Part shown: piece after piece, positions 40,817 through 58,533 of the stretch
Numbering within the stretch: position 1 is the stretch's first letter
Layout of the letters: each line of letters opens with the position of its first letter
DNA from: Actinomycetospora straminea
GTDB taxonomy: Bacteria; Actinomycetota; Actinomycetes; Mycobacteriales; Pseudonocardiaceae
Direction: 5' to 3'
DNA: 64,000 bases
Assembly: GCF_028737255.1 (NCBI RefSeq)
Contig: NZ_JAQZAN010000012.1
Location: 62,001-126,000 of the forward strand
The notes under the pieces: model-generated
Told to the model about the DNA's origin: nothing
What the model saw: the letters and a program-made list of their open reading frames with translations, nothing else
Databases searched by the model: none
Made by a program: the position numbers and the translations under genes

Positions 40817-40895
40817 GAGTGCTCCCTGGGCTCGGGCGGCGGCGGTCAGGCGCTCGCGGGCGGATCACCCGCGGTGTCGGTGGCGTCCGGATCGC

Positions 40896-41324: not shown

Positions 41325-41382
41325 ACGTCTACCTTGACATGCGTCGAACCACGAGGCAACCTTTGGTTCGATAGACGTCGAA
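41318..41382. promoter_or_regulatory. ArsR operator region between arsR and arsI
   Basis: TTGACATACGTCT and TTGACATGCGTCGAA are direct repeats 16 bases apart, the first overlapping the arsR start codon. A palindrome-like TTCGATAGACGTCGAA follows at 41367. Position and repetition fit two ArsR dimers controlling divergent promoters. Confidence 0.65.
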
Positions 41383-41414
41383 ACAGGCGCCGGAACGTGT
41401 TCGAGGAGGACGCC

Positions 41415-41963
41415 GTGTCCCGTGTGCAGCTCGCCCTGCGGGTCTCCGACCTGGAGGGCTCGATCCGCTTCTACTCCCAGCTCTTCGGTGTCGAGCCGGC
41501 CAAGCGCCGTCCCGGCTACGCCAACTTCGCGGTCACCGAGCCGCCCCTCAAGCTGGTCCTGCTCGAGGGTGAGGCCGACCGCCCGACCGTGATGGACCAC
41601 CTCGGGGTGGAGGTCGCGTCGACCGCCGAGGTCGACGACGCCACGGCGCGCCTCTCGGAGCTGGGGCTGTTCACCCAGGTCGAGGACGACACCACCTGCT
41701 GCTACGCCCGCCAGGACAAGGTGTGGGTGCGGGGCCCGGGCCGCGAGCCCTGGGAGGTCTACACCGTCAAGGAGGACTCCGCGGACTTCGGCACCAGCGG
41801 CATCGGTGCCACGATGCCCGACGACGCCACCGCCGAGACCGCCGGCGGCCAGACCGCGTGTTGCGGGGTCACCGCCTGCTGCTCCCACGACGAGCACGCC
41901 ACCGAGCCCGGCGTGACCGTCACCGAGGCCACGACCGCCGCCGGCTGCGGGTGCGTCGCGTGA
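41415..41963 (+). CDS. arsI: ArsI C-As lyase (CadI-like dioxygenase) with Cys-rich tail
   Basis: 182 residues. Vicinal-oxygen-chelate fold: VQLALRVSDLEGSIRFYSQL, DHLGVEV (metal His62), and DDTTCCYARQDKVWV, where Cys95-Cys96 bind the trivalent organoarsenical, then EPWEVYT with the metal Glu. Cleaves methyl- or aryl-As(III) bonds. The C-terminal 35 residues add ACCGVTACC and GCGC, a cysteine-rich tail. GTG start behind GAGGAGG; the stop overlaps arsM as GTGA. Confidence 0.9.
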   Translation: MSRVQLALRVSDLEGSIRFYSQLFGVEPAKRRPGYANFAVTEPPLKLVLLEGEADRPTVMDHLGVEVASTAEVDDATARLSELGLFTQVEDDTTCCYARQDKVWVRGPGREPWEVYTVKEDSADFGTSGIGATMPDDATAETAGGQTACCGVTACCSHDEHATEPGVTVTEATTAAGCGCVA

Positions 41964-42706
41964 CCACGGAGTCCGCGGACGGGTCGGCCGTGGCACGCGA
42001 GCGGGTCCGCGCCCGCTACGCCGCCGCGGCCGACCAGGTCCGCGCCGGCCGGACCCCGAGCTGCTCGGGGTCCGACCCGGCCGGGATGTGCGGCGACGCC
42101 TACGACCCGTCCGACCTCGCCGACGCCGCGGGGGCCGGGGTCGCCAGCCTCGGCTGCGGGAACCCGCTCGCCGTCGCGGAGCTGCTCGCCGGGGAGACCG
42201 TGCTCGACCTCGGGTCCGGCGCCGGGCTGGACGTGCTGCTCTCCGCCCGCCGCGTCGGACCCACCGGGTTCGCCTACGGGCTGGACATGACCGACGAGAT
42301 GCTCGACCTCGCCCGCCAGAACGCCGCCGACGCGGGCGTCACCAACGTCGAGTTCCTGCGCGGGCACATCGAGGCGATCCCGCTGCCCGACGCCTCGGTC
42401 GACGTCGTCATCTCCAACTGCGTGATCAACCTGTCCACGGACGCGCCGGCCGTGTTCGGCGAGATCGCGCGAGTGCTGCGGCCCGGCGGGCGCCTCGGCG
42501 TCTCCGACCTCGTCGCGGACGACGAGGCCGACCGCGCGACGGTCGCCGACGGGGCGGCATCGGTCGGGGCGATCACCGGTGTCCTCCGTCGGGCCGAGTA
42601 CCGGGCCCAGCTCCGGGAGGCCGGCCTCTCCGAGGTCGCGATCACCCTCACCCAGGAGGTCGCCGGCGGTGTCTTCTCGGCCGTCATCCAGGCCTCGCGC
42701 ACCTGA
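41960..42706 (+). CDS. arsM: arsenite S-adenosylmethionine methyltransferase
   Basis: 248 residues. SAM motif [37 protein letters not shown], and the ArsM signature [17 protein letters not shown]. Cysteines in [14 protein letters not shown] and [10 protein letters not shown] correspond to the arsenite-binding set. Methylates As(III); with ArsI in the same transcript the pair could both make and demethylate organoarsenicals. Start overlaps the arsI stop. Confidence 0.92.
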
Positions 42707-44138: not shown

Positions 44139-44855
44139 GTGCCGAAGCTCTGGGACGAGACCGTCGAGTCCCACCGCCGCGTGGTGCGCGAGGCGATCGA
44201 GGACGCCGCGTGGGCGCTCGCCGACGAGCACGGGCTCCGGGCCGTCACCATGGCCGGGATCGCCACCGCCGCGGGGATCTCCCGGGCGACGATCTACAAG
44301 TACTTCCCCGACGTCGAGTCCGTCCTCGCGGCCTGGCACCAGCGCCAGGTCGACGCGCACCTCGAGCAGCTGACCGCGATGAGCGAGTCCGCCGACGACC
44401 CGGAGCAAGCCCTGCGATCGGTCCTCGGCGCCTACGCCGGGATGATCGCTCGTCGTGGACGGCACGGCCCCGAGCTCGCCGCGTCGCTGCACCGGCCGGG
44501 CGATCACCGGACGAGCGAGGCACGGGTCGACGACCTCCTGCGGCGACTGATCACGTCCCGCGTCGAGGCGGGCCACGTGCGGGCGGACATCGAGGTCGAC
44601 CTCCTCGTCCGCTTCTGCCGGCACGCCCTGGGAGCAGCAGCCGAGCTTCACTCACCGGAGGGCGTCGACCGCCTCGTCGAGCTCACGCTCGCCGGACTGG
44701 AGCCGGAGGCCGCCGGTCCGGGCTCGGTGTCACGACGCGACGAAGACGGGCAGGACCAGGCCGGCGGCGATGCCGAGGACCAGGGAGAGAAGGGCGGCGG
44801 TGACGGCGCCGTGGCGTGCGGTCCGGGACTCACGGATCCCGTCCGCGGACCCTGA
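44139..44855 (+). CDS. TetR/AcrR family transcriptional regulator
   Basis: 238 residues. Helix-turn-helix: REAIEDAAWALADEHGLRAV, TMAGIATAAGISRATIYKYF, then PDVESVLAAWH. The last 45 residues (after AGLEPEAAG) are low-complexity and lie antisense to the 3' end of nuoN, so the frame overlaps that convergent gene by 126 bases; the protein core ends before this. GTG start. Likely autoregulated through the adjacent repeats and acting on the divergent membrane genes. Confidence 0.84.
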   Translation: MPKLWDETVESHRRVVREAIEDAAWALADEHGLRAVTMAGIATAAGISRATIYKYFPDVESVLAAWHQRQVDAHLEQLTAMSESADDPEQALRSVLGAYAGMIARRGRHGPELAASLHRPGDHRTSEARVDDLLRRLITSRVEAGHVRADIEVDLLVRFCRHALGAAAELHSPEGVDRLVELTLAGLEPEAAGPGSVSRRDEDGQDQAGGDAEDQGEKGGGDGAVACGPGLTDPVRGP

Positions 44856-46136
44856 TGGCTCGTCCCGGAACAGCGGGGCGATCCAGCGCAGGTAGTAGAA
44901 GAGCGAGGCGACGGTGTTGATCGCGGCGAGGACGGCGAGCCAGGCCATCCCGCCGTCGAAGGCCGCGGCGAAGGCGGTGAGCTTGCCGACGAAGACGGCC
45001 GTGGGCGGTGTCCCGACCAGGCCGAGCAGGCTCACGACGAGGGCGCTCGCGAGCAGGGGACGACGTCGGCCGAGCCCCCGGAACTCCTCGATGGTGCGCG
45101 CGGGGTGGGCCGCGACCACGGCGAAGGCCGCGACGTTCGTGAGCGTGTAGGCGGCGAGGTAGAAGAGCAGGGCGGGCAGCGCCTGCGGGGCACGGGCGCC
45201 CACGGCGATGATCATCAGCACGTAGCCGACCTGGGAGACCGTGGAGTAGGCGAGCAGCCGCAGGACGGACGTCTGGGCGAACGCGGCGAGGTTGCCCAGG
45301 GTCATGCTGAGCGCTGCCAGCACCGCGACCAGCAACGGCCAGGGGACGATCTGGTCCGGGACGGCCAGGAGGAGCCGCCACATCGCGGCCAGCGCGCCGA
45401 CCTTGGGAATGGTCGTCAGGACGGCGGCGACAGCCGGCGGCGTGCCGTCGGTGACGTCGGGGACCCAGAAGTGCGCGGGGACGGCGCCGGCCTTGAAGGC
45501 CAGGCCGGCCAGCACCGCGACGAGTCCGACGGCCGCCGGCCCGGCCGCTCCCGTCGCGAGTCCGCCGGGCAGGGCCTCGTAGCCGGTCGTCCCGCCGGCT
45601 CCGTACAGCAGGGTGGTGCCGGCGAGCATCGTGACTCCGGCGAAGGCACCGGAGAGGTAGTACTTCAACGCGGCCTCGGTCGTCGCGCCCGACTTGGCCC
45701 ACCCGGTCAGGGCGTAGAGCGGGACGCTCGCGAGAAGGAACGCGGCGAACAGCAGCAGGAGATCGCAGGCACCGGCCATCAGCACCGCTCCGAGACCGCC
45801 GAGCAGGACGAGCGCGGTGAACTCGCTCTCGCGCGGGTGCGCGGCGACGGCGTCGCGGGACCACCAGAGGATCAGGGCGACCGCGACCAGGACGATCGCG
45901 CGCACCGCATGGGTGGTCGTGTCGAGGACGTAGGTGTCGAAGGTGGTGCTGGGCGGCCTCGTCGCGGCGACGACCGTCGCGACCACGCCGACGCCCACGG
46001 CGAGCAGGGCGAGGACGCGCACCCGCCCCTGCCGGCGGCGTGGTGTCCATGCCCCGACGAGGACGGCGAGCACCGCGCCTCCGAGCAGCGCGAGCTCGGG
46101 GACCAGCGTCGTGGGGTCCTCGGTCATCATCACCAC
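44730..46136 (-). CDS. nuoN: NuoN-like proton-translocating subunit
   Basis: 468 residues, about 13-14 membrane spans, Proton_antipo_M domain. Key segments: LKYYLSGAFAGVTMLAGTTL, LAFKAGAVPAHFWVPDVTDG (lysine and histidine of the half-channel), AFAQTSVLRLLAYSTVSQVGYVL, and VSLLGLVGTPPTAVFVGKLT. Last gene of the leftward nuo-like operon. Its ATG cluster (three near-consecutive Met) leaves the start within a few codons uncertain. 3' end overlaps the convergent TetR gene. Confidence 0.92.
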   Translation of the reverse strand: MVMMTEDPTTLVPELALLGGAVLAVLVGAWTPRRRQGRVRVLALLAVGVGVVATVVAATRPPSTTFDTYVLDTTTHAVRAIVLVAVALILWWSRDAVAAHPRESEFTALVLLGGLGAVLMAGACDLLLLFAAFLLASVPLYALTGWAKSGATTEAALKYYLSGAFAGVTMLAGTTLLYGAGGTTGYEALPGGLATGAAGPAAVGLVAVLAGLAFKAGAVPAHFWVPDVTDGTPPAVAAVLTTIPKVGALAAMWRLLLAVPDQIVPWPLLVAVLAALSMTLGNLAAFAQTSVLRLLAYSTVSQVGYVLMIIAVGARAPQALPALLFYLAAYTLTNVAAFAVVAAHPARTIEEFRGLGRRRPLLASALVVSLLGLVGTPPTAVFVGKLTAFAAAFDGGMAWLAVLAAINTVASLFYYLRWIAPLFRDEPSGSADGIRESRTARHGAVTAALLSLVLGIAAGLVLPVFVAS

Positions 46137-46179: not shown

Positions 46180-47685
46180 TCATCGGGACACCAGCTCGTT
46201 GACCACCCGCGCCGCGGGCTCGATCAGGTCGAGGAGGAAGCGCGGCACCACGCCGATCAGGGTGGCCAGCAGGAGCAGCGGGACGACGGCCCCGAGCTCC
46301 CGGGCCCGCAGGTCGGGGAAGGGACGTGGCGTGCCCGGCGCGTCGGGGAAGCGCAGCTCGCCGAGCAACATCCGGGAGAGCGCGAGCAGGAACAGCCCGG
46401 CGGTGACGAGGATGCCGACGACGGCGATCGCGGTCGCCACGGGTGCCGCGCCCAGCGCGCCGGTGAAGATCTGGAACTCGGCGATGAACCCGGAGAAGCC
46501 GGGGAGCCCGAGCGAGGCGAAGGCGGCCACCGCGAACAGGCCGGCGAACCGCGGCGTGCGCGCCGCCAGGCCGCCGTAGGCGCTCATGTCGTAGGTGCGG
46601 CCGCGGTCGTGCAGCGCGCCGGCGAGCAGGAACAGGGCGCCGGTGATGAGGCCGTGCGACACCATCTGGGTGACCGCGCCGGTCGTCGCGAGCTGCCGGG
46701 CCTGGGCGTCGCTCCCGGCGACCAGGCCGGCGGCGCCGACGCCGAGCAGGACGTAGCCCATGTGGTTCACCGAGGTGTAGGCGATCATGCGCTTCAGGTC
46801 GGTCTGGGCGAGCGCGACCATCGCGCCGTAGATCACCGACACGACGCCGAGCACCACGACGACACCGGCGAACTGCCGCCACGACGCGGGCAGCAGCGGC
46901 ATCGCGATGCGGACGAAGCCGTAGGTCCCCATCTTCAGCAGCACGCCGGCCAGCACGGCGGAACCTGCGGCCGGGGCCTCCGTGTGGGCCGGCGGCAGCC
47001 AGGTGTGGAACGGGACGAGCGGGGTCTTCACCGCCAGCCCGACACCGATCGCGAGCAGGGCGGCGCCGGCCACGGGGCCTCCGGCCGCGAGCGGGTTCTG
47101 CGCGGCGAGGGCGGGGATGTCGAAGGTGTGGGGGGTCGCGGCGAGGTAGATCAGGATGAAGCCGAGGAGAAGCGCCAGCGAGCCCAGGAAGGTGTACAGG
47201 AAGAACGTCAGGGCCGCCGAGCGTGCGCGGGCGCCGTGGCCCCAGCCGGCGATGACGAAGTACATGAACACGATCGACAGGTCGAAGAACAGGAAGAACA
47301 GGATCAGGTCGAGGGCGACGAAGACACCGACGCTGACGGTCTGCAGGGCCAGGAACAGCAGCACGTACGACTTCGGGCGTCGGTCCTCGCGCAACGACCA
47401 GACCGCGGCCGCGGTGAACACGACGACCGTCATCGCCACGAGCGGGAGCGAGAGCCCGTCGACCCCCAGGTGGTACGAGATGCCCGCGCTCGGGATCCAG
47501 GCGACCTGCTCGACGAACCCGTAGCCGCCGGCGGGCAGCTGCCGCCACATCACGGCGACGAGGGCGAGCTGCACGAGCCCGGTGGCCACCCACGGCACGG
47601 TGTAGCGGCGCGGTCGGCTCGTGGCCGGCAGCGCGGCGAGGGCGAGCGCGACGACGACGGGCAGGAACACGACGACGGAGAGCAC
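46180..47685 (-). CDS. nuoM: NuoM-like proton-translocating subunit
   Basis: 501 residues with about 14 membrane spans. Contains FFDLSIVFMYFVIAGWGHG, GLAVKTPLVPFHTWLPPAHT, LLKMGTYGFVRIAMPLLP, and AQTDLKRMIAYTSVNHMGYV, all standard NuoM motifs; functional lysine and glutamate positions look intact. One base downstream of the nuoL stop. It would form an antiporter-like proton channel in the membrane arm. Confidence 0.95.
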   Translation of the reverse strand: MLSVVVFLPVVVALALAALPATSRPRRYTVPWVATGLVQLALVAVMWRQLPAGGYGFVEQVAWIPSAGISYHLGVDGLSLPLVAMTVVVFTAAAVWSLREDRRPKSYVLLFLALQTVSVGVFVALDLILFFLFFDLSIVFMYFVIAGWGHGARARSAALTFFLYTFLGSLALLLGFILIYLAATPHTFDIPALAAQNPLAAGGPVAGAALLAIGVGLAVKTPLVPFHTWLPPAHTEAPAAGSAVLAGVLLKMGTYGFVRIAMPLLPASWRQFAGVVVVLGVVSVIYGAMVALAQTDLKRMIAYTSVNHMGYVLLGVGAAGLVAGSDAQARQLATTGAVTQMVSHGLITGALFLLAGALHDRGRTYDMSAYGGLAARTPRFAGLFAVAAFASLGLPGFSGFIAEFQIFTGALGAAPVATAIAVVGILVTAGLFLLALSRMLLGELRFPDAPGTPRPFPDLRARELGAVVPLLLLATLIGVVPRFLLDLIEPAARVVNELVSR

Positions 47686-47686
47686 G

Positions 47687-49501
47687 TCAGCTCACCCCGA
47701 TCAGGATCACGGCGAGGGCGGCCAGCACGCCGAAACCGACGGCGGCCTGGGCGTAGTACTGGTGGAGCTGGCCGGTCTGGGGTCGGCGGGCAGTACGGCC
47801 GAGAGCTCGGGCGCCGGCCGCCACACCGTCGACGCCCCGGTCGAGACCCCGCTCGACACGTCGATCGACCACGTCGGCGGCGCGGACCGCGGCGCGGCCC
47901 GCTCCGAGCACGACGCGGTGGTGGAACCGGTCGTCGAGGCGGGCGAGGGCGGTGGCGAGCCGGAGGGCCGGCCGGACGGAGACGGCGACGGCGAGCCGCT
48001 CGAGGCCCAGCCACGCGCGGAGTGCCGCCGGGGCCGGGAACCGGCCGGCCGCGCGCCACGTCACCCCGACGCCGACGAGAGCGATCGCCCCGGACACGAC
48101 GAGCTCGAGAACGGTCGGTTCCGGAGCCGGCCGGAGGATGTCCGGGCCGAGGGCGAGCAGCCCCGCCGCCGCTGCCGTCACCGCGAGGGTCACGGCGACG
48201 GCGGCCTGGAGCCGCGCCCCGGCGCGCCCGATCGCAGCGTCCTCGGTGGCCGGGGGCGAGGGTCGCCACACGAACCACAGCGCCTTCGTGGCGTAGCCGG
48301 CCGAGACGAGGCCGGCGGCCAGACCGACGGCGTAGAGCGCGGGACTGCTCGCCGCCGCGCCCGCGAGGACGGCGTCCTTGCTCACCCAGAGGCCCGTCGG
48401 TGGCACGCCGGCCAGGGCCACGGCGCCGACGGTGAAGCTCACGCCGAGGACGGGATGGCGCCGCGCGGCGCCACGCAGATCGTCGAGCTCCCGGCTGCCG
48501 ACCCGCACCAGCCACGCGCCGGCCACCAGGAACAGCAGGCTCTTGGTCGCGCCGTGCGCGACGGTCTGGAGCACCCCGCCCGGCACGGCGCCGACCCCGG
48601 CGGCGAGCACCATGTACCCGATCTGGGCCGAGGTCGAGGCGGCGAGCAGTTGCTTGAGGTCGCTCTGGGCGAGCGCGACGAGACCGAGCAGCAGGGCGGT
48701 CGCCACGCCGACCCACGCCACCAGCGGCCCGGCCCAATCGGTCGCGTCCAGCCCGGCAGCTGTCCGCAGGAGCAGATAGGCACCGGCGGCGACCATCGTC
48801 GCCGAGTGCAGCAGCGCCGACACCGGGCTCGGGCCGTGCATGGCGCCCGCGAGCCAGAAGCTGAACGGCAGCTGCGCGGACTTGCCGACCGCGGCGACCA
48901 CGACGCCGGCCACGGCGAGGTCTCGCCAGCCACCGGCCACCACGGGTAGTGCGTCGATCGCGAGTGTCGGGACGCCGCCCGCCAGGATGGCGCCCGCCGC
49001 GAGGTAGAGCCCGAGATCGGCCGTGCGCGTGGTGAGGAAGGCCGTCCTCGCGCCGCGGGCCGCCGCCGGGTCGCCGGTGTGGTGGGCGATGAGCGCCCAG
49101 CTGGTCGCGCCCATGACCTCCCACGCGGCGAGCAGCGGCGGCAGCGTCGTCGCGGTGACCGTCGCCAGCATCGCGCCGGCGAAGACCAGCACGAGGCCGA
49201 CGAAGCGGCCCGATCGCAGGGCCGGCTCGCCCGCGGCGAACGCCAGCACCGCGAGGAGCGCGACCGCGACGAGCACGATCATCACCGCCGACAGGTCGTC
49301 GACCGCGAAACCGGCGGCGATGCCGTCGAGGAGCGGCACGACACCCACCGGGCGTTGCCGGGCGGCGGCCACCGCCAGCCCGACGGTCGCCGCGGCGATC
49401 AGGAGTCCCGCGGGGACGGCGCCGCGCGGAGGACGCACCACGATCAGGGCGATGCCGCCGACGAGGGGGACGGCGAGCAGGGCGACGAGGAGGACGCTCA
49501 T
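47687..49501 (-). CDS. nuoL: NuoL-like proton-translocating subunit
   Basis: 604 residues. Proton_antipo_N and _M regions: LLAAWEVMGATSWALIAHHT, VGKSAQLPFSFWLAGAMHGP, SPVSALLHSATMVAAGAYLL, LAQSDLKQLLAASTSAQIGY and VAHGATKSLLFLVAGAWL. The C-terminus holds a long amphipathic region and a final span (QYYAQAAVGFGVLAALAVIL), consistent with the lateral helix of NuoL. The ATG is two bases past the nuoK stop; the open frame upstream is antisense artefact. Confidence 0.93.
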   Translation of the reverse strand: MSVLLVALLAVPLVGGIALIVVRPPRGAVPAGLLIAAATVGLAVAAARQRPVGVVPLLDGIAAGFAVDDLSAVMIVLVAVALLAVLAFAAGEPALRSGRFVGLVLVFAGAMLATVTATTLPPLLAAWEVMGATSWALIAHHTGDPAAARGARTAFLTTRTADLGLYLAAGAILAGGVPTLAIDALPVVAGGWRDLAVAGVVVAAVGKSAQLPFSFWLAGAMHGPSPVSALLHSATMVAAGAYLLLRTAAGLDATDWAGPLVAWVGVATALLLGLVALAQSDLKQLLAASTSAQIGYMVLAAGVGAVPGGVLQTVAHGATKSLLFLVAGAWLVRVGSRELDDLRGAARRHPVLGVSFTVGAVALAGVPPTGLWVSKDAVLAGAAASSPALYAVGLAAGLVSAGYATKALWFVWRPSPPATEDAAIGRAGARLQAAVAVTLAVTAAAAGLLALGPDILRPAPEPTVLELVVSGAIALVGVGVTWRAAGRFPAPAALRAWLGLERLAVAVSVRPALRLATALARLDDRFHHRVVLGAGRAAVRAADVVDRRVERGLDRGVDGVAAGARALGRTARRPQTGQLHQYYAQAAVGFGVLAALAVILIGVS

Positions 49502-49503
49502 CG

Positions 49504-49809
49504 TCAGCCCCGCAGCTCGGCGGCGTCGTCGGTCATGTCGATGCGCTTCGCCCGGTAGATCGCGGTCGTGACCGCGAAGCCGGCCGCCATCTCGATGGCC
49601 ATCGCCGTGACGACGATGACGATCAGCACCTGGCCCTCCGTGCCGGCGGGGGCCAGGAAGTACCAGAACGCGGCCGCGGCGAGGACGACGCCGTTGAGCA
49701 GGAGCTCGAGGCCCATCATCAGCATGACGATGGATTGCTGGGTGAGCGCCCCGAACAGGCCGACGGCGACGAGCGCGGCGGCGACGACGAGGAAGGCCTG
49801 GAGGTTCAT
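49504..49809 (-). CDS. nuoK: NuoK-like subunit
   Basis: 101 residues, three membrane spans: NLQAFLVVAAALVAVGLFGA, MMGLELLLNGVVLAAAAFWY (the second with the conserved glutamate) and GQVLIVIVVTAMAIEMAAGF, which also carries a conserved glutamate. Normal NuoK length. The start overlaps the nuoJ stop (ATGA). Confidence 0.94.
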   Translation of the reverse strand: MNLQAFLVVAAALVAVGLFGALTQQSIVMLMMGLELLLNGVVLAAAAFWYFLAPAGTEGQVLIVIVVTAMAIEMAAGFAVTTAIYRAKRIDMTDDAAELRG

Positions 49810-50366
49810 CGTCCGACACCGCCGCGGTCGCGGTCGTCGGACGCCGGGGCGTCGAGCTCGTCGCCCAGCCGGTCGTACCGGCCCCGGCCGGCGGCCAGGA
49901 CGACCGTGCCGACGATCGTCGCGAACAGCGTCACGCCCAGGGTCATCATCGTCAGCATCTGGCCGCCCATGAGGCTCTCGCCGAGGGCCATCGTGAGGTC
50001 CGCCGCCGGCCGGCCCCCGCGCACCGGCCAGTCCACGAGGAGCGCGCCCCCGGCGAGGGCCACGAAGGTGGTCACGGCGATGACTGCGGCCCCACGGGTG
50101 TTGTGGAACATCGACATCGGCATGAGCCCGGCCGGGTTCATCATGTACATGATCATGAAGATGGCCATGACGACCATCTCGATGACCATCATCAGCACGA
50201 TGACCACGCCGAGGTACTGGAGTCCCGTCATGAGCACCAGTCCGGCGACGGCGAGGAACGAGAGGAGCAGCAGGAACGTCGCGCGCGCCATCGAGTCGAC
50301 GCGGAACACCAGCGCGCCGGCGACGACGGCGGTCACGGCGAGCACCACGAACAGGGCAGTCGTCAT
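49806..50366 (-). CDS. nuoJ: NuoJ-like subunit
   Basis: 186 residues, five membrane spans, including LLLLSFLAVAGLVLMTGLQY and LGVVIVLMMVIEMVVMAIFM, the conserved span with its glutamate. A Met-rich stretch follows (MIMYMMNPAGLMPMSMFHNT), unusual for NuoJ and potentially copper-binding. ATG overlaps the nuoH stop by one base. The C-terminal tail is acidic. Confidence 0.9.
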   Translation of the reverse strand: MTTALFVVLAVTAVVAGALVFRVDSMARATFLLLLSFLAVAGLVLMTGLQYLGVVIVLMMVIEMVVMAIFMIMYMMNPAGLMPMSMFHNTRGAAVIAVTTFVALAGGALLVDWPVRGGRPAADLTMALGESLMGGQMLTMMTLGVTLFATIVGTVVLAAGRGRYDRLGDELDAPASDDRDRGGVGR

Positions 50367-51307
50367 CAGAAGCCTCCTTCGCCGAGCACGACGAGGGTCA
50401 CGACGAGGGCCTGCGCGATGGTGGCGGGTGTGAGGACCACCAGGGAGAACTCGGTCCAGCGCTCCATGCGGATGGTCGGGATCCGGTGGCGCAGGGCGAC
50501 GAGTGCCACGAGCACGGCCAGGGTCTTCACCAGCACCCAGGCCCAGGCCGGCAGCCACGGCCCGTGCCCCCCGCCGAGGAACAGCGGCACCGCCATTGCC
50601 GCTGCCGCCACCAGCAGGAGCCACCGCCCGGCCACGAAGACGAGCCGGTCGACACCTGCGAGCTCCGCCGCCGCCCCGCCGGCCACGTCTCGTCCGACGG
50701 GCGCCGAGAACGGGCCCCAGAACGCCATCGCCGCCACGCTGAGCAGAAAGGCCACGAAGGCCACCGGCATGATCAGGACGAACCACAGGCCCCCCTGGGC
50801 GGCGACCACGTCGGTGACGCGGAGGCTCTGCGCCCCGACGGCGGCCGTGATGAGGGCGAACATGTGCGGGAGCTCCCAGGCCAGGCCCTGGGCCACGAAC
50901 CGGTAGCCGCCGATCAGCGACAGCGTGCTGTTGGAACCCCACCCGACCAGCCACACCGCGGCCCACGCGAAGACCTCCATCGCGTTGAACCAGACGACGC
51001 CGGCGCCGAGGTCCGCCACGGGGCGCATGCCGAGCGGGAGGACGGCGGCGGCCAGCAGCGCGGCGATCGGGAGGACGGCGCCACCGACGCCGCGCAGCAG
51101 CTCGTCGCCGCCCACGGTGCGCCGGCGTTGACCCACGAGCAGCCGCAGGGCCTCGCGGGCGGGCGTCACCGCGGCCACGGCCCACGGCACGGGGCGACCC
51201 GCCGCTCGCCCGGCGGCGAGGACGTCCGCGGCGACGGCCGCCCACGCCACGGCGAGCAGCAGGATCGGCAGGAGGATCGAGAGGCCGAGGGGCGGTGCGG
51301 CGCTCAC
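50366..51307 (-). CDS. nuoH: NuoH-like quinone-channel subunit
   Basis: 313 residues, about eight spans. The quinone-chamber region is VGWGSNSTLSLIGGYRFVAQ then GLAWELPHMFALITAAVG, where canonical NuoH has a SYE-x-P segment; here ELPH replaces it. Further on, WGPFSAPVGRDVAGGAAAEL, then VLVKTLAVLVALVALRHRIP. GTG start overlaps the stop of the NuoB/D-like gene. Together with that protein it would form the quinone site interface. Confidence 0.88.
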   Translation of the reverse strand: MSAAPPLGLSILLPILLLAVAWAAVAADVLAAGRAAGRPVPWAVAAVTPAREALRLLVGQRRRTVGGDELLRGVGGAVLPIAALLAAAVLPLGMRPVADLGAGVVWFNAMEVFAWAAVWLVGWGSNSTLSLIGGYRFVAQGLAWELPHMFALITAAVGAQSLRVTDVVAAQGGLWFVLIMPVAFVAFLLSVAAMAFWGPFSAPVGRDVAGGAAAELAGVDRLVFVAGRWLLLVAAAAMAVPLFLGGGHGPWLPAWAWVLVKTLAVLVALVALRHRIPTIRMERWTEFSLVVLTPATIAQALVVTLVVLGEGGF

Positions 51308-52419
51308 GACGCACCGCCCGGAGCCGTCGGCAGGTCCGGTGCAGGCCGGGGCTGCGGGTCCGCCACGGCGACGACGAGTCTGGCCGCGGCGAACTGAGCG
51401 CCGACCAGCCGGGCATCCAGCGTCGCGAGATCGATCCCGACGTGCCCCTCTTCGCCGGTGCCCGCGACCGCGACCCCGGCCGAGGCCAGCACGTCGTCGA
51501 GGGCGTCGAGGATCTCGCTGCGTCCGGCCCCGGCCGACCGGAACGTCCACCGCAGCAGTCGAGACCGCCGGACCCGGCGACGCAGGTCGTCGAGCTCCTC
51601 GGGGACGTGCGCGGTGTCCGCGCCGGAGAGCAACGCGTCGCGCAGTCCGCGGGCGCGCGCGGCGGGGCCTTCCCAGCCGGCGAGGGCGAGGACGCGCGCC
51701 GCGGTGTCGAGCGCTCGGGCGGCGTCGGGCAGGCGCTCCGTGGCTCCCTGTTCGTCGAGGTCGAGGAAGCGCGACCGGGCCTCCTGGATGACGTCGCCCT
51801 GGAGGACGACGTCGATGACGAGCCCGCTCGGCCATTCCGGCAGGACCGGTCCGAGGCTCACGTGGAGCTGGTCGAGAGCCAGGCCGTCGCGATCTTCGCC
51901 CAGGTCGGCCATGGCCAGCCCTCCGGGGAGCTCCATCCCGCCGCCGTGGTGGTGGTGACCACCGTCGCTCGCCGTGTGCGCGCTGTGATCATCGTGCTCA
52001 CCCGGCCCGAGCTCGTCGTGCCCGCCGTCGCCGTGGCTCCGACCGCCGGGGGAGGGGTCGGGAGGGCGTGCGCGCGACCCGCTGCGGGATGCGGCCGCCC
52101 GTTGTGCGTCGGCATCCGCCAGTCGCCGGACGACCCCGTCGAGGGCCGCGGCGACCTCATCCTCGTCCGCGATCCGGACCAGGGTGCGGGGGGCGGGCAC
52201 CCCGACCCAGATGTCGTCGACGACGGCGGCGAGCTCTCGGCCCGGTCGTCCCACGACCACCACGAGATCCGCGTCCGCCGGCGCGGACGCGATCGGCCAC
52301 CGCCGCCGGGCCAGCTCCTGCTCGACGCGTGCCCGCAGCCGGTCGGTGCCCGGGGCGGGAACGACGAGGGCGTGCGGGCAGCCGACGGCCGCACGCAGGA
52401 GCGCGCTCCTCAGGTCCAT
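51304..52419 (-). CDS. fused NuoB-like/NuoD-like protein with His-rich linker
   Basis: 371 residues between nuoA and nuoH, where nuoB-nuoG would normally lie. Residues 1-100 look like a NuoB-type alpha/beta domain (ADADLVVVVGRPGRELAAVV) but with one cysteine (C14) instead of four cluster ligands. Residues 105-160 are a Gly/Ser/His-rich linker (HDDHSAHTASDGGHHHH). From 162, MELPGGLAMADLGEDRDGLA, then LHVSLGPVLPEWPSGLVIDV resembles the start of NuoD (GPQHPSTHG region), followed by helical sequence. The assignment rests on motif likeness and gene position; electron transfer through cluster N2 seems impossible. Confidence 0.6.
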   Translation of the reverse strand: MDLRSALLRAAVGCPHALVVPAPGTDRLRARVEQELARRRWPIASAPADADLVVVVGRPGRELAAVVDDIWVGVPAPRTLVRIADEDEVAAALDGVVRRLADADAQRAAASRSGSRARPPDPSPGGRSHGDGGHDELGPGEHDDHSAHTASDGGHHHHGGGMELPGGLAMADLGEDRDGLALDQLHVSLGPVLPEWPSGLVIDVVLQGDVIQEARSRFLDLDEQGATERLPDAARALDTAARVLALAGWEGPAARARGLRDALLSGADTAHVPEELDDLRRRVRRSRLLRWTFRSAGAGRSEILDALDDVLASAGVAVAGTGEEGHVGIDLATLDARLVGAQFAAARLVVAVADPQPRPAPDLPTAPGGAS

Positions 52420-52760
52420 CGCAGTGCTCCCTCACGCCAGGCGTAGAGCACTCCTGCCACGAGGAGAGCCAGGAAGCCGAACATCTCGATGACCGCCGCC
52501 GGACCCCTCTGGGCGACGACCAGGGTCCAGGGGTACATGAAGATCATCTCCATGTCGAAGGCCAGGAAGACCATGGTCACGACGTACCAACGGACGTGGA
52601 ACCTCGAGACGGGGTGCTCGAGCGGCGGCAGCCCACCGGCGTGCGGCACGACGTCGGCCAGTGGGGCCGCCACGACGACGCCCCGCGCGAGCGTGCGCAG
52701 GGCGACGGTCAGCAGGACACCGACGCCGAGCACCGCCAGCAGCGGGGTCAGTTCGTCCAT
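52410..52760 (-). CDS. nuoA: NuoA-like subunit
   Basis: 116 residues, three spans, with the diagnostic RFHVRWYVVTMVFLAFDMEM then IFMYPWTLV, equivalent to the FxxFDxExxFLYPW of NuoA. First gene of the leftward operon; its 3' end overlaps the next gene by 10 bases. ATG behind GAGAGG. A CsoR-type palindrome lies 47 bases upstream. Confidence 0.92.
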   Translation of the reverse strand: MDELTPLLAVLGVGVLLTVALRTLARGVVVAAPLADVVPHAGGLPPLEHPVSRFHVRWYVVTMVFLAFDMEMIFMYPWTLVVAQRGPAAVIEMFGFLALLVAGVLYAWREGALRWT

Positions 52761-52806
52761 CACTCGTGCCTCTCGGATCGTGGTCGGTCGGCCTACCCGG
52801 AGTTGT

Positions 52807-52823
52807 ATACCCCCAGGGGGTAT
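52807..52823. promoter_or_regulatory. CsoR-type operator upstream of the nuo-like operon
   Basis: ATACCCCCAGGGGGTAT, a perfect 17-base palindrome around a central A, identical to the copy before csoR. It sits 47 bases from the nuoA start. On the minus strand a TATACA follows it as a possible -10 element; no good -35 is visible. Confidence 0.8.
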
Positions 52824-52978
52824 CTGTTGCCCAGCAAGGTACGAGGTAGGGGTATCCGGTGCAAGGAGTGGTGGTGTGCTCGACGAGCGGAGGTGTCCTC
52901 GGGGATGCCCGTCGAGCTGGGCTGGCCAAGCCCCTGGACCCTCCCGCGGGGGTGGCCCGCTCGTGCCGGGTTGACGAG

Positions 52979-52995
52979 ATACCCCCAGGGGGTAT
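52979..52995. promoter_or_regulatory. CsoR operator in the csoR-copZ-copA promoter
   Basis: The same ATACCCCCAGGGGGTAT palindrome. It exactly fills the spacer between a TTGACG -35 (52971-52976) and a TATGTT -10 (52993-52998), so bound CsoR would block the promoter. The G-tract palindrome matches known CsoR boxes. Confidence 0.88.
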
Positions 52996-53022
52996 GTTGG
53001 AGACGTCGAGAGGAGCCGAGCG

Positions 53023-53304
53023 ATGAACGGCTACGCGGGGGAGAAGGACGCCTACGTCAAGCGGCTGCGCCGGATCGAGGGTCAGGTGCGCGGTATCGCG
53101 AAGATGGTCGAGGACGACAAGTACTGCATCGACATCCTGACCCAGGTCTCGGCGGCCACCCGGGCACTCGAGAACGTCGCCCTCGGGCTGCTCGACGATC
53201 ACCTCGGCCACTGCGTGGCCCAGGCCGCTGCCGAGGGCGGTGACGTGGCCGACGAGAAGATCGCCGAAGCCACCGCGGCCATCGCGCGCCTGGTCAAGTC
53301 CTGA
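53023..53304 (+). CDS. csoR: CsoR copper-sensing repressor
   Basis: 93 residues, all-helical CsoR/RcnR family. Cu(I) ligands Cys35 (DDKYCIDIL), His60 and Cys64 (DDHLGHC) are at the canonical spacing, and RLRRIEGQVRGIAKMVE is the DNA-binding helix. Releases DNA when it binds Cu(I). First gene of the copper operon, with an operator overlapping its promoter; GAGAGGAG precedes the ATG. Confidence 0.95.
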   Translation: MNGYAGEKDAYVKRLRRIEGQVRGIAKMVEDDKYCIDILTQVSAATRALENVALGLLDDHLGHCVAQAAAEGGDVADEKIAEATAAIARLVKS

Positions 53305-53442: not shown

Positions 53443-53667
53443 ATGAGCCAGACCCGCACCTACACGGTCACCGGCATGACCTGCAGCCACTGCGTGACGT
53501 CGGTGCTAGAGGAGGTCGGCGAGGTGCCGGGTGTGACGGGTGTCGACGTCGACCTCGCCGGCGGCCGGGTCGTCGTCACCGCGGAGGCGCCGATCGACGA
53601 CGACGCGGTCGCGGCCGCCGTGGAGGAGGCCGGCTACCGGCTCGAGAACTCGGGGAGCAGCTCGTGA
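53443..53667 (+). CDS. copZ: CopZ-like copper chaperone
   Basis: 74 residues, a single heavy-metal-associated domain: YTVTGMTCSHCVTSVLEEVG with the Cu(I)-binding CSHC, then VPGVTGVDVDLAGGRVVVTA. Delivers Cu(I) to CopA. 138 bases after csoR; the stop overlaps the next gene (GTGA). Confidence 0.95.
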   Translation: MSQTRTYTVTGMTCSHCVTSVLEEVGEVPGVTGVDVDLAGGRVVVTAEAPIDDDAVAAAVEEAGYRLENSGSSS

Positions 53668-54737
53668 GCACCGCGAGCCCCGCGGCGACAGCGACCCCGC
53701 CGTCGGGAGCCGTCGACGGGGACACCGACGACCGGGCGCAGCCCGAGCGGCTATCCTCGCGGCGCTCACGGTTCGATCGTCCCGTCATCCGGTTGGCCGG
53801 GTTCGGCCTCGCCCTGGCGCTGGCCCTCGTCGGCGGTGGCGGGCTCGGCCTCCTGGCCGGACCCGGCCCGACCCCACAGGCCGAGCCGCCGGGTCCGGCG
53901 GGCCCCGCGGTGCCGGCCGCGACCAGCACCCCGGCCGGGGGCCCGGACGTGAGCGGCCTCGCCGTGTCCGAGGACGGCTACACCCTCGACGTCCGCGCCA
54001 CACCGGCACGGGCCGACACACCCGGCGAGCTGGCGTTCCGCATCGTCGGACCGGGCGGTGCCCCGGTCACGGCCTTCACCCCCACGCACGACGAGCCGCT
54101 GCACCTGATCGTGGTGCGACGGGACCAATCCGGCTTCCAGCACCTCCATCCGGCGATGGGCCCGGACGGGACCTGGCGGATCACCACCAGCCTGGCGCCG
54201 GGGGATCACAGGGTCTTCGCCGACTTCGCTCCCGACGGGCGGACCGAGGCCATGACCCTCGGCCGCGACATCGCGGTGGGCGGCCTCTACAGCCCGACGC
54301 CGCTTCCCCCGCCCTCCACCACCGCGACCACCGCGGACGGCTACACGGTGACCTTGACCGGGGCTCTGGTGCCCGGGACGGCGAGCCCGGTGACCCTGTC
54401 CGTGTCGCGGAACGGGGCACCGGTCACCGATCTGCAGCCGTACCTCGCCGCGTACGGCCACCTCGTCGCCCTCCGCACCGGTGACCTCGCCTACCTCCAC
54501 GTCCACCCGACCGGCTCGCCCGGGGACGGGCGTACCCCGGCGGGACCGGCCGTCGAGTTCCTCGCCGAGGTGCCGTCCGCTGGTCCTTATCGGCTCTACC
54601 TCGACTTCGCCCACGACGGCGTCGTGCGCACGGCGGAGTTCACGGTCGTGGCCACGGCGGGCGCGGGGACACCGGTGGCCGGTGTCCCCACCACCTCGAG
54701 CGGCCACGGCGAGTCGGGTGCACCCCATGGCCACTGA
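53664..54737 (+). CDS. membrane-anchored extracytoplasmic protein of the copper operon
   Basis: 357 residues. One membrane span near 45-68 (LAGFGLALALALVGGGGLGL) after a basic cytoplasmic start; then a Pro-rich linker and two beta-sandwich-like domains. Histidine pairs recur at equivalent places: EPLHLIVVRRDQSGFQHLHP and YGHLVALRTGDLAYLHVHP, which look like metal-binding HxH sites, and the C-terminus ends SGHGESGAPHGH. Between copZ and copA, so likely a periplasmic-side copper-binding factor; no named family. Confidence 0.75.
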   Translation: MSTASPAATATPPSGAVDGDTDDRAQPERLSSRRSRFDRPVIRLAGFGLALALALVGGGGLGLLAGPGPTPQAEPPGPAGPAVPAATSTPAGGPDVSGLAVSEDGYTLDVRATPARADTPGELAFRIVGPGGAPVTAFTPTHDEPLHLIVVRRDQSGFQHLHPAMGPDGTWRITTSLAPGDHRVFADFAPDGRTEAMTLGRDIAVGGLYSPTPLPPPSTTATTADGYTVTLTGALVPGTASPVTLSVSRNGAPVTDLQPYLAAYGHLVALRTGDLAYLHVHPTGSPGDGRTPAGPAVEFLAEVPSAGPYRLYLDFAHDGVVRTAEFTVVATAGAGTPVAGVPTTSSGHGESGAPHGH

Positions 54738-54797: not shown

Positions 54798-57095
54798 ATG
54801 AGCACCGCCATGCACGACACCAGCCCGGTCGCGAAGGATGTCGCGACCACCCACGACGTCGAACTCGTGCTCGGCGGCATGACCTGCGCCTCGTGTGCGA
54901 ACCGCATCGAGCGCAAGCTCAACAAGCTCGACGGCGTCGAGGCGACGGTGAACTTCGCGACGGAGAAGGCGCGCGTCACCCTCACCTCCGAGGTGACCAC
55001 GAACGACCTGATCGGGGCCGTGGAGGCCGCCGGCTACACGGCGTCCGTCCCGGAGCCCCCGACGAGCGGGGCCGACGGCGATGCCGAGCCCGACGGAGAG
55101 CGCGCGGGCGAGGCCGACGGCCTCCGCACCCGGCTCCTCGTGTCGCTCGTCCTGTCCGTCCCCGTGGTCGCCCTGGCGATGGTGTCGGCGCTGCAGTTCA
55201 CCTACTGGCAGTGGGCGTCGCTCGCGCTGGCGGCTCCGGTGGTGGTCTGGGGCGCGCTGCCGTTCCACCGGGCCGCCTGGGCCAACCTGCGCCACGGCAC
55301 CGCGACCATGGACACCCTCATCTCGCTCGGCACCCTCGCCGCCCTCGGCTGGTCGCTCTACGCCCTCTTCCTGGGCACGGCCGGCGTGCCGGGGATGACG
55401 CATCCCTTCGAGCTGTCCATCGCGCCGACCGACGGCGCGGGCAACATCTACCTCGAGGTCGCGGCCGGGGTCACGACGTTCATCCTGGCCGGCCGCTGGT
55501 TCGAGGCCCGCGCCAAGCGCCGCGCCGGGTCGGCGCTGCGGGCACTGCTCGAGCTCGGTGCGAAGGACGTCGCCGTCCTGCGTGACGGTGTCGAGCACCG
55601 CATCCCGGTCGACCAGCTCGCCGTCGGCGATCGCTTCGTCGTGCGCCCGGGCGAGAAGATCGCCACCGACGGCGAGGTCGAGGACGGCAGCTCCGCCGTC
55701 GACGCCTCCATGGTCACCGGCGAGTCGGTGCCGGTCGAGGTCGCAGCGGGCGACAGCGTCACCGGCGCGACCGTCAACGCCGGCGGCCGCCTCGTCGTCA
55801 GGGCGACCCGGGTCGGCGCGGACACCCAGCTGGCGCAGATGGCGCGCCTGGTCGAGGACGCCCAGACCGGCAAGGCCGCTGTCCAGCGCCTGGCCGACCG
55901 CGTGTCCGGTGTCTTCGTCCCCGTCGTCATCCTGCTCGCCGCCGCCACCCTCGGCTTCTGGCTCGCCGCCGGCGTCGGTGCGGCGGGCGCGTTCACCGCG
56001 GCGGTCGCGGTCCTGATCATCGCGTGCCCCTGCGCGCTGGGATTGGCCACGCCGATGGCGTTGATGGTCGGCACCGGGCGAGGGGCAGCGATGGGCATCC
56101 TCATCAAGGGTCCGGAGGTGCTCGAGTCGACCCGCCGTGTCGACACGGTCGTCCTGGACAAGACCGGCACCATCACCGAGGGCCGCATGTCCGTGGTCGA
56201 CGTCGTCCCGGCGTCCGGCGAGGACGCCGACGAGGTCCTCCGTCTCGCCGGCGCGCTGGAGGACGCTTCCGAGCACCCCATCGCCCGAGCGATCGCGTCC
56301 GCCGCGCGAGAGCGATCGGGACGACTCCCGGCCGTCGAGGGATTCGGCAGCGACGAGGGCCTGGGTGTGCACGGCTCCGTCGAGGGTGCCGCCGTCCTCG
56401 TGGGCCGGCCGCGCCTCCTGCAGGACTGGTCGGTGGCCACCTCGAACGACCTCACGACCGCGAAGCTCCAGGCCGAGGAACGCGGACACACCGTGGTGGC
56501 GGTGGCGTGGGACGGCGCGGCGCGCGGCCTCCTGGTCGTCGCCGACACCGTGAAGGACACCAGCGCCGAGGCCGTGCGAGGCCTGCGAGGACTCGGGCTC
56601 ACCCCGGTCCTGCTCACCGGCGACGCCGAACCAGCCGCCCGCGCGGTCGCCGCGGACGTCGGCATCGAGCCCGACCGGGTCATCGCCGAGGTGATGCCCG
56701 CCGACAAGGACGACGTCATCGGGCGCCTCCAGGCCGAGGGCAAGGTCGTCGCCATGATCGGGGACGGCGTCAACGACGCCGCTGCCCTCGCCCGCGCCGA
56801 CCTGGGTCTCTCCGTGGGAACCGGCACCGACGTCGCGATCGAGGCCAGCGACCTCACCCTGGTGCGCGGCGACCTGCGCGCCGCGGTCGACGCCATCCGG
56901 CTCTCCCGTCGCACGCTGTCGACCATCAAGGGCAACCTGTTCTGGGCCTTCGCCTACAACGTCGCGGCCCTGCCCCTGGCCGCCGCCGGCCTGCTCAACC
57001 CCATGCTGGCCGGAGCGGCCATGGCGTTCTCCTCGGTCTTCGTCGTGGCGAACAGCCTGCGCCTGCGTCGATTCCGCACCCGCGCGACGTCCTGA
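54798..57095 (+). CDS. copA: Cu(I)-exporting P1B-type ATPase
   Basis: 765 residues. N-terminal HMA domain GGMTCASC (Cys30, Cys33); actuator TGES near 312; membrane CPC motif in IIACPCALG near 410; phosphorylation site DKTGT near 454; SEHPIA near 493; hinge [14 protein letters not shown]. Start ATG behind GGAGGG. All catalytic and transport residues are present, so it is predicted to pump cytosolic Cu(I) outward using CopZ-delivered metal. Ends at a strong hairpin shared with the convergent DUF305 gene. Confidence 0.95.
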
Positions 57096-57241: not shown

Positions 57242-57898
57242 TCAGACCCTGCTGAGCAGGGCCTGCATCTCGGTGATCTCCCGCTGCTGGTCGGCCACGA
57301 TCGTGCCGGCGAGCTCCTCGGCCTGGGGGTTGAGACCCTGGGCCTGCTCGGTCTGGGCCATCTGCACGGCACCGGTGTGGTGCCCGATCATCATCTGCAG
57401 GAACATCCGGTCGAAGGCAGCGCCGGACTGTGTCGAGAGCTGCTGCATCTGCTCCTGGGACATCATGCCCTGCATGGGCATGCCACCCATCGGCATGCCG
57501 GGCATCCCGTGACCCGGCATGCCGGGCATCGCGGTGGAGCCGGGCTGCGGGCGAGGCGCGCCCCAGGCGTCGAGCATCCGGTTCATCTGCTCGATCTCCG
57601 GACCCTGCTTCTGGGCGATGCGGGCAGCCAGGTCCTTGACCTCCGGCGACGAAGCGCGGTCGGAGGCCTGCGACGACATGGTGATGGCCTGCTGGTGGTG
57701 GGGGATCATGCCCTGGGCGAACAGCACGTCCGCCTGGTTGTGCTCGGGCGAGATCGGGGCGGCCGCCGAGGGCGGCGTGGCCGCCGAGGACGGGGCCGGG
57801 GCGGCCGCGGGTGGCGCGGATCCGGAGTCGGAACATCCCGCGGCCACGAGGGCGGCGGTGGCGGCGGCGATGACGCCGCCGACGAGACGGGCACGCAC
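57242..57898 (-). CDS. DUF305 lipoprotein, Met/His-rich
   Basis: 218 residues. Lipoprotein signal with lipobox AAGC near residue 18. Two DUF305 repeats: VLFAQGMIPHHQQAITMSSQ and FDRMFLQMMIGHHTGAVQMA, each with paired histidines. Between them is a Met/His/Gly-rich stretch (MPGMPGHGMPGMPMGGMPMQ), well suited to Cu(I) binding. GTG start with AAGGAGA upstream. It faces copA and is probably part of copper handling outside the membrane. Confidence 0.9.
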   Translation of the reverse strand: MRARLVGGVIAAATAALVAAGCSDSGSAPPAAAPAPSSAATPPSAAAPISPEHNQADVLFAQGMIPHHQQAITMSSQASDRASSPEVKDLAARIAQKQGPEIEQMNRMLDAWGAPRPQPGSTAMPGMPGHGMPGMPMGGMPMQGMMSQEQMQQLSTQSGAAFDRMFLQMMIGHHTGAVQMAQTEQAQGLNPQAEELAGTIVADQQREITEMQALLSRV

Positions 57899-58017
57899 GA
57901 GGAGGTCTCCTTCGGCTGGGCACCGGCCGGTGCGCGAGGGGCCGGTGCTGGTGGCAGGTCGCGGCGCCGCTGCGCGGGTCACGTCCGGGACGTGGCTCGC
58001 GCAGACGGAGGGCCGGC

Positions 58018-58533
58018 CTACAGCCGGAGGACCTGGAGCTCCGCCAGTCTCGAGGAGGCGGGAGGGGTCCGCGGCGCGGTCGCCGAGGCGCCGCCCTCCG
58101 TGCCGACGTCCGGGACAGGCGGCCGCCACCACAGCGCGACGAGGACGAGCACCAGCAGGAAGACCGCGGCGCCCACGAGCGCGGCGAGGCACATGTGCAG
58201 CAGGGAGCCGGCGTGGTCGTGGCCGCCCTCGCCCGGGTGGTGGTGCAGGAGCGCCGTGCTGCTCGGTGCGGACACGCCGTTCGGCACGTCGGGCCGGGCC
58301 CCGCGCTGATCGACGCTGCCGGCGTGCGTCGTGGCGTCGACGTCGTGGTGGTGCTCGTGACCAGAGGGCGCGGCGTGATCGGCGATCGAGGGGGCCGGCG
58401 GCGGGGAGGAGTCGACGTCCGGTGTCGCGTGCTGGTGGGCCCCGACGACGTGGTGCATGAGCACCAGCCCGAGCGCGACCAGCAGGACGGCGAGGCGTCC
58501 GCACCAGCTCGCGGGCAGGAGGGTCGCCGACAC
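58018..58533 (-). CDS. DUF6153-like His-rich membrane protein
   Basis: 171 residues. N-terminal span (LAVLLVALGLVLMHHVVGAH), then a His/Asp-rich exterior (HQHATPD, HEHHHDVDATTH, LLHHHPGEGGHDHAG) and a second span (MCLAALVGAAVFLLVLVLVA). This layout is the one I recall for DUF6153 proteins often encoded near DUF305 genes in actinobacteria. GTG start inside a longer open frame whose upstream part is Arg-rich artefact. Probably binds metal at the cell surface. Confidence 0.72.
   Translation of the reverse strand: MSATLLPASWCGRLAVLLVALGLVLMHHVVGAHQHATPDVDSSPPPAPSIADHAAPSGHEHHHDVDATTHAGSVDQRGARPDVPNGVSAPSSTALLHHHPGEGGHDHAGSLLHMCLAALVGAAVFLLVLVLVALWWRPPVPDVGTEGGASATAPRTPPASSRLAELQVLRL

Follow-up and report, generated by a model that had tools for sequence, protein, structure and literature searches.

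Predicted CsoR operators before csoR and before a divergent complex I-like gene cluster in Actinomycetospora straminea

The window analyzed here, a stretch of 64,000 nucleotides from Actinomycetospora straminea (contig NZ_JAQZAN010000012.1, positions 62,001 to 126,000), carries a minus-strand cluster of nuo-like genes and, divergent from it, a csoR gene followed in order by a copZ-like gene, a gene for a protein without known family, and a copA-like gene. The main features, in window coordinates, are the following:

44730-46136, minus strand: nuoN-like gene, one transmembrane Glu replaced by Leu (TIGR01770 317.9 bits, under the cut-off of 332.6; PF00361 178.4 bits)
46180-47685, minus strand: nuoM-like gene, one transmembrane Glu replaced by Asp (TIGR01972 476 bits, cut-off 263.8)
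47687-49507, minus strand: nuoL-like gene (PF00361 161.7 bits; E130, K209, H234, K322, and K377 present)
49504-49809, minus strand: nuoK-like gene (PF00420 49 bits; E35 and E73 present)
49806-50366, minus strand: nuoJ-like gene (PF00499 44.2 bits)
50366-51274, minus strand: nuoH-like gene, start uncertain (PF00146 122.7 bits; E134 retained, some quinone-loop residues altered)
51304-52419, minus strand: nuoBD fusion, a NuoB-like half without Fe-S and a shortened NuoD-like half (profile and AlphaFold model)
51940-52050, minus strand: His-rich disordered linker of the fusion, residues 124-160 (pLDDT below 50; 9 His in a 40-residue stretch)
52410-52763, minus strand: nuoA-like gene, start GTG at 52763 or ATG at 52760 (PF00507 86 bits)
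53023-53304, plus strand: csoR, CsoR-family copper repressor, RicR-like (PF02583 105.3 bits; Cys35, His60, and Cys64 in the sequence)
53443-53667, plus strand: copZ-like copper chaperone (PF00403, HMA)
53664-54737, plus strand: protein without known family that reads as secreted (no Pfam or NCBIfam match; recurs near nuo-like clusters)
54798-57095, plus strand: copA-like heavy-metal P-type ATPase (PF00122, PF00702, PF00403)
57242-58504, minus strand: DUF305 protein, start uncertain (PF03713 168.7 bits)

The nuo-like operon is made up of contiguous genes for A, a NuoB-NuoD fusion (BD), H, J, K, L, M, and N. No NuoE, NuoF, NuoG, or NuoI gene is present in this contiguous cluster, which leaves no room between genes, so the electron-input subunits of complex I are missing. 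The label nuoA-N, used in the first-pass annotation, therefore holds for A, H, J, K, L, M, N, and the fusion but overstates the set with regard to E, F, G, and I, while its description of a complex I-like membrane arm with ion-pumping capacity fits. A canonical nuo operon is located elsewhere in the genome, in which B, C, D, E, F, G, H, J, and K match Pfam profiles, a 4Fe-4S protein takes the place of I, and A, L, M, and N are matched by tblastn.

The NuoBD protein has no match in Pfam or NCBIfam, and the profile of its family hits the NuoB subunit from Thermus complex I with E 2e-6. In the AlphaFold model (mean pLDDT 83.9), the first half is NuoB-like and the second half resembles the NuoD fold (Z 12.2 over about 180 residues). 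A Foldseek search with this model returned nothing below E 0.001; ranks 1-19 were all NuoB-type chains with probabilities of 0.96-1.00 and E values above 0.001. The canonical NuoB of the same genome contains FGLACCAIEMM and matches PF01058, whereas the window NuoBD does not match PF01058. A single cysteine is found in the window NuoBD and 0-4 in 69 relatives, so the NuoB Fe-S cysteines are lacking; this alignment covered 69 of the 77 fetched family loci, eight with fragments or misread starts being omitted. At least seven His within 40 residues occur in 56/112 BD proteins versus 58/1178 other ORFs, and the His-rich linker probably binds metal, although such a stretch is about equally frequent with copper linkage (29/53) and without it (27/59).

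In contrast to the lost electron input, the positions in A, H, K, L, M, and N that align with what we take to be the complex I ion path are largely invariant, with few exceptions, among 72-74 members compared by alignment to the canonical copy (fetched family loci, near-copies retained). In NuoL, E130, K209, H234, and K322 are present in 72/72 and K377 in 71/72; in NuoM, K220 is present in 74/74 and both K251 and E403 in 73/74; in NuoN, K215, K245, and K385 are found in 65/72, 71/72, and 72/72, respectively. NuoK keeps E35 in 74/74 and E73 in 67/74 (Asp in 6), NuoA keeps E71 in 74/74 and D69 in 57/74 (Glu in 17), and NuoH keeps E134 in 73/74. One transmembrane Glu of complex I is replaced by Asp in NuoM (D135, 73/74) and another by Leu in NuoN (L134, 71/72), and these two substitutions form what is, judged from the alignments, a signature of the nuo-like family.

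Compared with respiratory complex I (NDH-1), the window cluster thus shares A, H, J, K, L, M, and N with retained ion-path residues but lacks E, F, G, and I and has NuoB and NuoD merged into a single protein that is devoid of Fe-S cysteines and frequently carries a His-rich linker. The presence of all seven membrane subunits could suggest a second complex I through which copper adjusts genuine respiratory capacity. We regard this as very unlikely, given that the cluster has no NuoE, F, G, or I, that its NuoB-like half is without cysteines and its NuoD-like half shortened, and that a complete complex I without a CsoR-type box lies elsewhere in the genome (no TACCC-N5-GGGTA site with at most one mismatch in the 19.9-kb canonical nuo stretch). 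The candidate assignment as a second true complex I was rejected on account of the missing electron-input subunits. With these subunits and the Fe-S cysteines absent, the proposed link from copper stress to respiratory capacity, which had been put forward together with ion pumping, is not supported.

Mrp antiporters, MBH/MBS, and DabAB are complex I relatives without NADH input, in which antiporter-like subunits work with another partner or none. The window cluster differs from them in its gene set A-BD-H-J-K-L-M-N and in its copper linkage. The Mrp antiporter is an MrpA-G set without NuoA, NuoH, or NuoB/D parts, whereas NuoA, NuoH, and the NuoB/NuoD fusion are all present in the cluster. Among 10 proteins scanned, there was no match for a DabA partner gene.

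The intergenic region between nuoA and csoR contains the following elements:

52807-52823, unstranded: left CsoR box, proposed operator of the nuo-like operon (exact match; in 6/6 Actinomycetospora loci; S. lividans-type TAC-N9-GTA dyad)
52836-52841, minus strand: predicted -10 TACCTT of the nuo-like promoter (TANNNT in 6/6, 17-bp spacing; by eye)
52840-52854, unstranded: second, degenerate TAC-N9-GTA site in the nuo promoter spacer (full dyad in 2/6 rows, the window and A. lutea; TACCCC half-site in 5/6)
52859-52864, minus strand: predicted -35 TTGCAC of the nuo-like promoter (TTGNNN in 6/6 aligned loci; by eye)
52971-52998, plus strand: csoR promoter TTGACG-16-TATGTT (promoter scan; conserved in the genus alignment)
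52979-52995, unstranded: right CsoR box in the csoR promoter spacer (exact match; conserved across the genus; between TTGACG and TATGTT)

The 17-base palindrome ATACCCCCAGGGGGTAT occurs exactly at 52807-52823, before nuoA, and at 52979-52995, before csoR. The first-pass annotation had placed two exact copies within about 190 bases, the left one some 47 bases from nuoA and the right one in the csoR promoter spacer, and this is borne out by a measured span of 189 bases, a distance of 46 bases between the left box and the ATG at 52760, and the position of the right box within TTGACG-16-TATGTT. No other site with up to three mismatches exists in the window, and shuffles of the window yielded a mean of 0.02 matches, 0 of 100 shuffles equalling the observed count. 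The 6.29-Mb genome holds one further exact copy, three sites with one to three mismatches, and 0 matches to the reversed pattern. The third exact copy (L003, C40:841-857) lies 15 bases 5′ of a DUF4396 gene, which is likely a further regulon member. As for the mismatched sites, one (L005) sits between an HMA-domain ORF and another ORF, one (L004) between an AraC/DJ-1 regulator and a family-less ORF, and one, a weaker box (L006, C44:45102), 1.8 kb from a second csoR gene at C44:46944. Four of the six own-genome sites with up to three mismatches are therefore found at csoR, at nuoA beside csoR, at an HMA protein, or 1.8 kb from the second csoR. The ORF beside the L006 box contains a metal-binding MTCASC motif and is apparently truncated.

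According to the accessible text of PMC3902906, the type-2 operator consensus of streptomycete CsoR is ATATACCCCTNAGGGGTATAT, and the operators share a conserved TAC-N9-GTA dyad, mutation of which leaves no detectable binding. By their sequence, both window boxes are of this type, with a TAC-N9-GTA dyad flanking two G/C tracts. The resemblance to the S. lividans operators extends to the ATACCCC-type pseudopalindrome and to sites before csoR and copZA, but the targets named in that text are csoR and copZA, and it mentions no complex I-like operon (PMC3902906). In M. tuberculosis, RicR is likewise a CsoR-family copper repressor with targets outside its own operon; those given in the available text, namely mymT, lpqS, rv2963, socAB, mmcO, and ricR, include, in contrast to the window, no nuo-like genes (PMC10961391).

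The product of the window csoR gene scores 105.3 bits against PF02583 (cut-off 22.8) and 158.9 bits against the NCBIfam RicR model NF052430 (cut-off 175), and owing to the score under the RicR cut-off it is filed as CsoR-family only. Cys35, His60, and Cys64 are present by eye, and we take this Cys-His-Cys set to be the Cu(I) ligand fingerprint of CsoR and its residues to be the predicted ligands. As part of a joint explanation of the locus, we consider it fairly probable from the sequences that a single CsoR-family copper repressor uses both boxes as its operators. That the boxes instead serve a CsoR-family repressor with another ligand may be argued from the three CsoR-family genes in the genome and the missed RicR cut-off; the presumed copper-ligand residues in the repressor and the copZ- and copA-like genes that follow it speak against such a ligand, which we regard as highly improbable.

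Alignment of the csoR-nuoA gap from six Actinomycetospora loci revealed three conserved blocks, the rest being poorly alignable. The first is the right box within TTGAC(A/G)-16-TATG.T-like elements. The second is the left box, with at least 11/12 consensus positions in 6/6 loci; the first-pass annotation had named absence of the left site in relatives of the same gene order as a possible counter-finding, and the box is kept in all six Actinomycetospora loci found with that order. The third block, at about 52834-52866, reads TTGNNN-17-TANNNT on the nuo strand in 6/6 loci and is a predicted nuo promoter, read by eye; a strict promoter scan gave the csoR promoter only. The left box begins 13 bases downstream of the predicted -10, and with a predicted start near 52829 it would span roughly +7 to +23. 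Another candidate nuo promoter, GGCAAC-16-TATACA with the box in its spacer, was rejected because neither hexamer is conserved in the six-locus alignment.

To place these features in a broader context, loci were collected from around family hits, from a named collection, and from plasmids. A NuoBD homologue was found in 74/297 genomes of the taxonomic family and in 27/394 class genomes (family alignment, E 1e-10). From 151 loci with NuoA and NuoM, 115 were kept after dropping near-copies and those with NuoM shorter than 400 aa, and 114 of these had sufficient upstream sequence for box tests; one further locus (L185), whose contig ends before nuoM, stands outside the locus counts. The named loci, the best 80 of 87, came from a search whose query alignment was itself mostly copper-linked, and the proportion of copper linkage among them cannot be read as an unbiased frequency. 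Among the 115 non-redundant loci, csoR is divergent and close in 21, copA lies directly upstream in the same direction in 11, csoR or copA is elsewhere nearby in 22, only DUF305 or a multicopper oxidase is present in 11, and none of these is found in 50; neither csoR nor copA occurs in the fetched flanks of 60/115. The csoR neighbors were called at E 1e-4, a threshold at which a few may be distant CsoR-family members. As family genomes have 1-7 CsoR-family genes each, mostly 1-3 (60/60 genomes), a csoR flanking 43/115 loci is far above chance, with sampling biased to copper-linked relatives. Mapped on the NuoM tree, 4 changes are required for the copA-nuoA layout and 10 for the csoR-divergent one, which indicates that copper linkage was gained or lost several times.

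Boxes were scored by matches to 12 consensus positions and counted within 130 bases before nuoA. Boxes with at least 10/12 matches were present in 27/114 loci, where shuffles gave 0.3 and random windows an expectation of 0.8, and in 13/93 loci with csoR absent or more than 1 kb away, where 0.4 were expected; control upstreams of other genes in the same loci had a box in 11/367 cases (Fisher p 1e-10 for all loci and 2e-4 for those with csoR absent or distant). The TAC-N9-GTA dyad precedes nuoA in 24/114 loci versus 10/367 control upstreams (p 2e-9) and, where neither csoR nor copA is near, in 10/60 loci versus the same 10/367 (p 9e-5). Among the remaining spacings between 4 and 15, p 0.05 is reached by N15 alone (TAC-N15-GTA in 14/114 versus 6/367, and in 7/60 loci without csoR or copA near); this enrichment lies outside the predictions of the CsoR model and perhaps reflects tandem or overlapping dyads. 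At a threshold of at least 11/12 matches, 16/114 loci keep the box and only 5 of them are outside the csoR-divergent group, the boxes in csoR-distant loci being mostly weaker. Among all csoR-divergent loci, the box is within 130 bases of nuoA in 14/21, within 70 bases in 10/21, and absent from the 130-base interval in 7/21. No significant association between box and copper linkage emerged from a paired test on the tree (median p 0.22). In Streptomyces griseus (L132) and S. oceani (L177), where the fetched flanks contain neither csoR nor copA, a 10/12 box lies 45-54 bases before nuoA; both loci group within the copper-linked portion of the NuoM tree.

A different arrangement is observed in seven genomes of the genus (L080, L081, L084, L103, L106, L108, and L109), which are among the 11 loci with copA directly upstream. 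Here copA is divergent from csoR and is followed by nuoA, whose start lies no more than 9 bases past copA or overlaps with it. The csoR-copA gap holds one box in 7/7 of these loci, and a second, about 37 bases on, falls within that gap in 3/7 and over the called copA start, which is uncertain, in 4/7. On sequence grounds, we read these copA-nuoA operons as a second route to the same CsoR control. The copA-nuoA order also occurs in Arthrobacter, Curtobacterium, and Pseudonocardia oceani loci. Proximal boxes and copA-nuoA operons with an upstream box together place a predicted 37/115 loci under CsoR control.

The left box might instead be a second operator for csoR alone, acting in tandem or looping autoregulation, with the nuo-like operon as a passenger of a metal island. 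Both boxes do share one 189-base stretch, and the nuoA-csoR gap of some divergent loci (L127, L094) contains one box only. However, a box is found near nuoA even where csoR is 2.9 kb (L185, 11/12) or 2.6 kb (L141, 10/12) away, where nuoA stands behind copA (L202), and in the two Streptomyces loci without a csoR in the fetched flanks; in addition, the left box follows the conserved predicted nuo promoter, and the copA-nuoA operons would give the same control in another way. This autoregulatory alternative is accordingly judged unlikely. Copper-released CsoR control of the nuo-like operon is the best reading, to which we assign a probability of roughly 0.85; the copper control proposed in the first-pass annotation gains support from the left box in 6/6 loci, the N9 enrichment, and the boxed copA-nuoA operons in seven genomes.

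Under CsoR control of this kind, the repressor would, without copper, occupy the right box, within the csoR promoter spacer, and the left box just downstream of the predicted nuo promoter, repressing both csoR-copZ-copA and the divergent nuo-like operon (a roadblock model). Cu(I) binding would free CsoR from the boxes, and the efflux genes and nuo-like genes would then rise together. The product would be a full membrane arm (A, H, J, K, L, M, and N) with one cytoplasmic NuoB-NuoD fusion, in which ion movement through the antiporter-like subunits may be linked, at the NuoBD/H/A junction, to a conformational change or the loading of metal rather than to NADH oxidation. Such coupling could serve metal handling via the His-rich subunit or, more generally, proton/cation balance during copper stress. 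The boxes and their conservation, the gene content, the loss of electron input, the retained ion-path residues, and the repeated copper linkage are all sequence-based observations, from which we infer CsoR binding and copper induction as well as transport mechanism, direction, substrate, complex assembly, and a metal-binding role of the linker. Taken as a joint claim, a copper-derepressed, redox-less, complex I-like ion translocator serving copper resistance appears probable.

It is also conceivable that the core job of the cluster is not copper and that it is a general cation/proton translocator, recruited repeatedly by copper loci because copper stress disturbs proton/cation balance. This would accord with the 60 of 115 loci without csoR or copA near, with a His-rich linker independent of copper linkage, and with ion-path residues retained family-wide. 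Against it, the CsoR-type dyad is enriched even without nearby csoR or copA, so some such loci may belong to a copper regulon. We consider a general translocator a serious possibility, though at somewhat below even odds. Among 35 of the 77 named loci (from the best 80 of 87) that have neither csoR nor copA, copper markers, i.e., DUF305, F510, multicopper oxidase, and M56/BlaI or ArsR-like genes, were found in 10, and nothing of this kind in 25. A homologue of the family-less protein encoded at 53664-54737 is present at 25/77 named loci (again from the best 80 of 87).

Returning to the copper-resistance reading, plasmids point in the same direction. Ten of 15 plasmid records with a match were examined, and their gene tables are incomplete. 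Clusters lie beside copper-type genes in M. avium pMAH135, Arthrobacter sp. FB24, Pseudonocardia alni, Curtobacterium, and M. paragordonae, and the cluster genes at these copper-adjacent loci (L198, L199, L200, L202, and L205) are annotated as NADH-quinone oxidoreductase subunits. An Ornithinimicrobium plasmid has a DUF305 gene about 10 kb from its cluster. Four other records, from Rhodococcus pyridinivorans, Gordonia, Streptomyces NBC_00080, and R. oxybenzonivorans, have neither csoR nor copA annotated near the match in these incomplete tables, and those of Streptomyces NBC_00080 and R. oxybenzonivorans show few or no further nuo genes. We conclude that the nuo-like cluster is probably a copper-resistance accessory repeatedly joined to copper loci and plasmids.

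The accessible part of PMC12361115 reports Nuo subunits on plasmids of 57 species, mostly as partial sets, and reads them as possible complex I gene transfer; the word copper is absent from its main text as available. In the open-licence literature, no link between copper and a nuo-like cluster is described among the matches listed (the best 7-20 of up to 214), as far as titles and abstract starts go, nor in the available text of PMC6305408, PMC12361115, PMC10961391, PMC8525567, PMC4801387, and PMC3902906. The main text on plasmid pMAH135 (PMC4324632) contains none of the terms copper, NADH, nuo, metal, and P-type. Copper resistance may include an undescribed ion-moving machine. More tentatively, and with considerable doubt, the cluster might represent a new class of the complex I superfamily, a redox-free, metal-coupled translocator in which a His-rich NuoBD replaces the electron-transfer arm, ion flow drives or is gated by cytoplasmic copper handling, and the whole travels on plasmids and islands under CsoR as an actinobacterial copper-resistance accessory.

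If the copper-resistance reading is true, a bioenergetic machine would be added to copper resistance, and the family would offer a natural experiment on complex I, its membrane arm being strongly constrained though the redox part is gone, in which one can ask whether the antiporter-like arm works without electron transfer. It would also account for the NADH-quinone oxidoreductase annotations on actinobacterial plasmids. Elsewhere in the window, the ORFs at 40403-42706 resemble an arsenic group, with putative genes for arsenate reductase, ArsR, and a methyltransferase.
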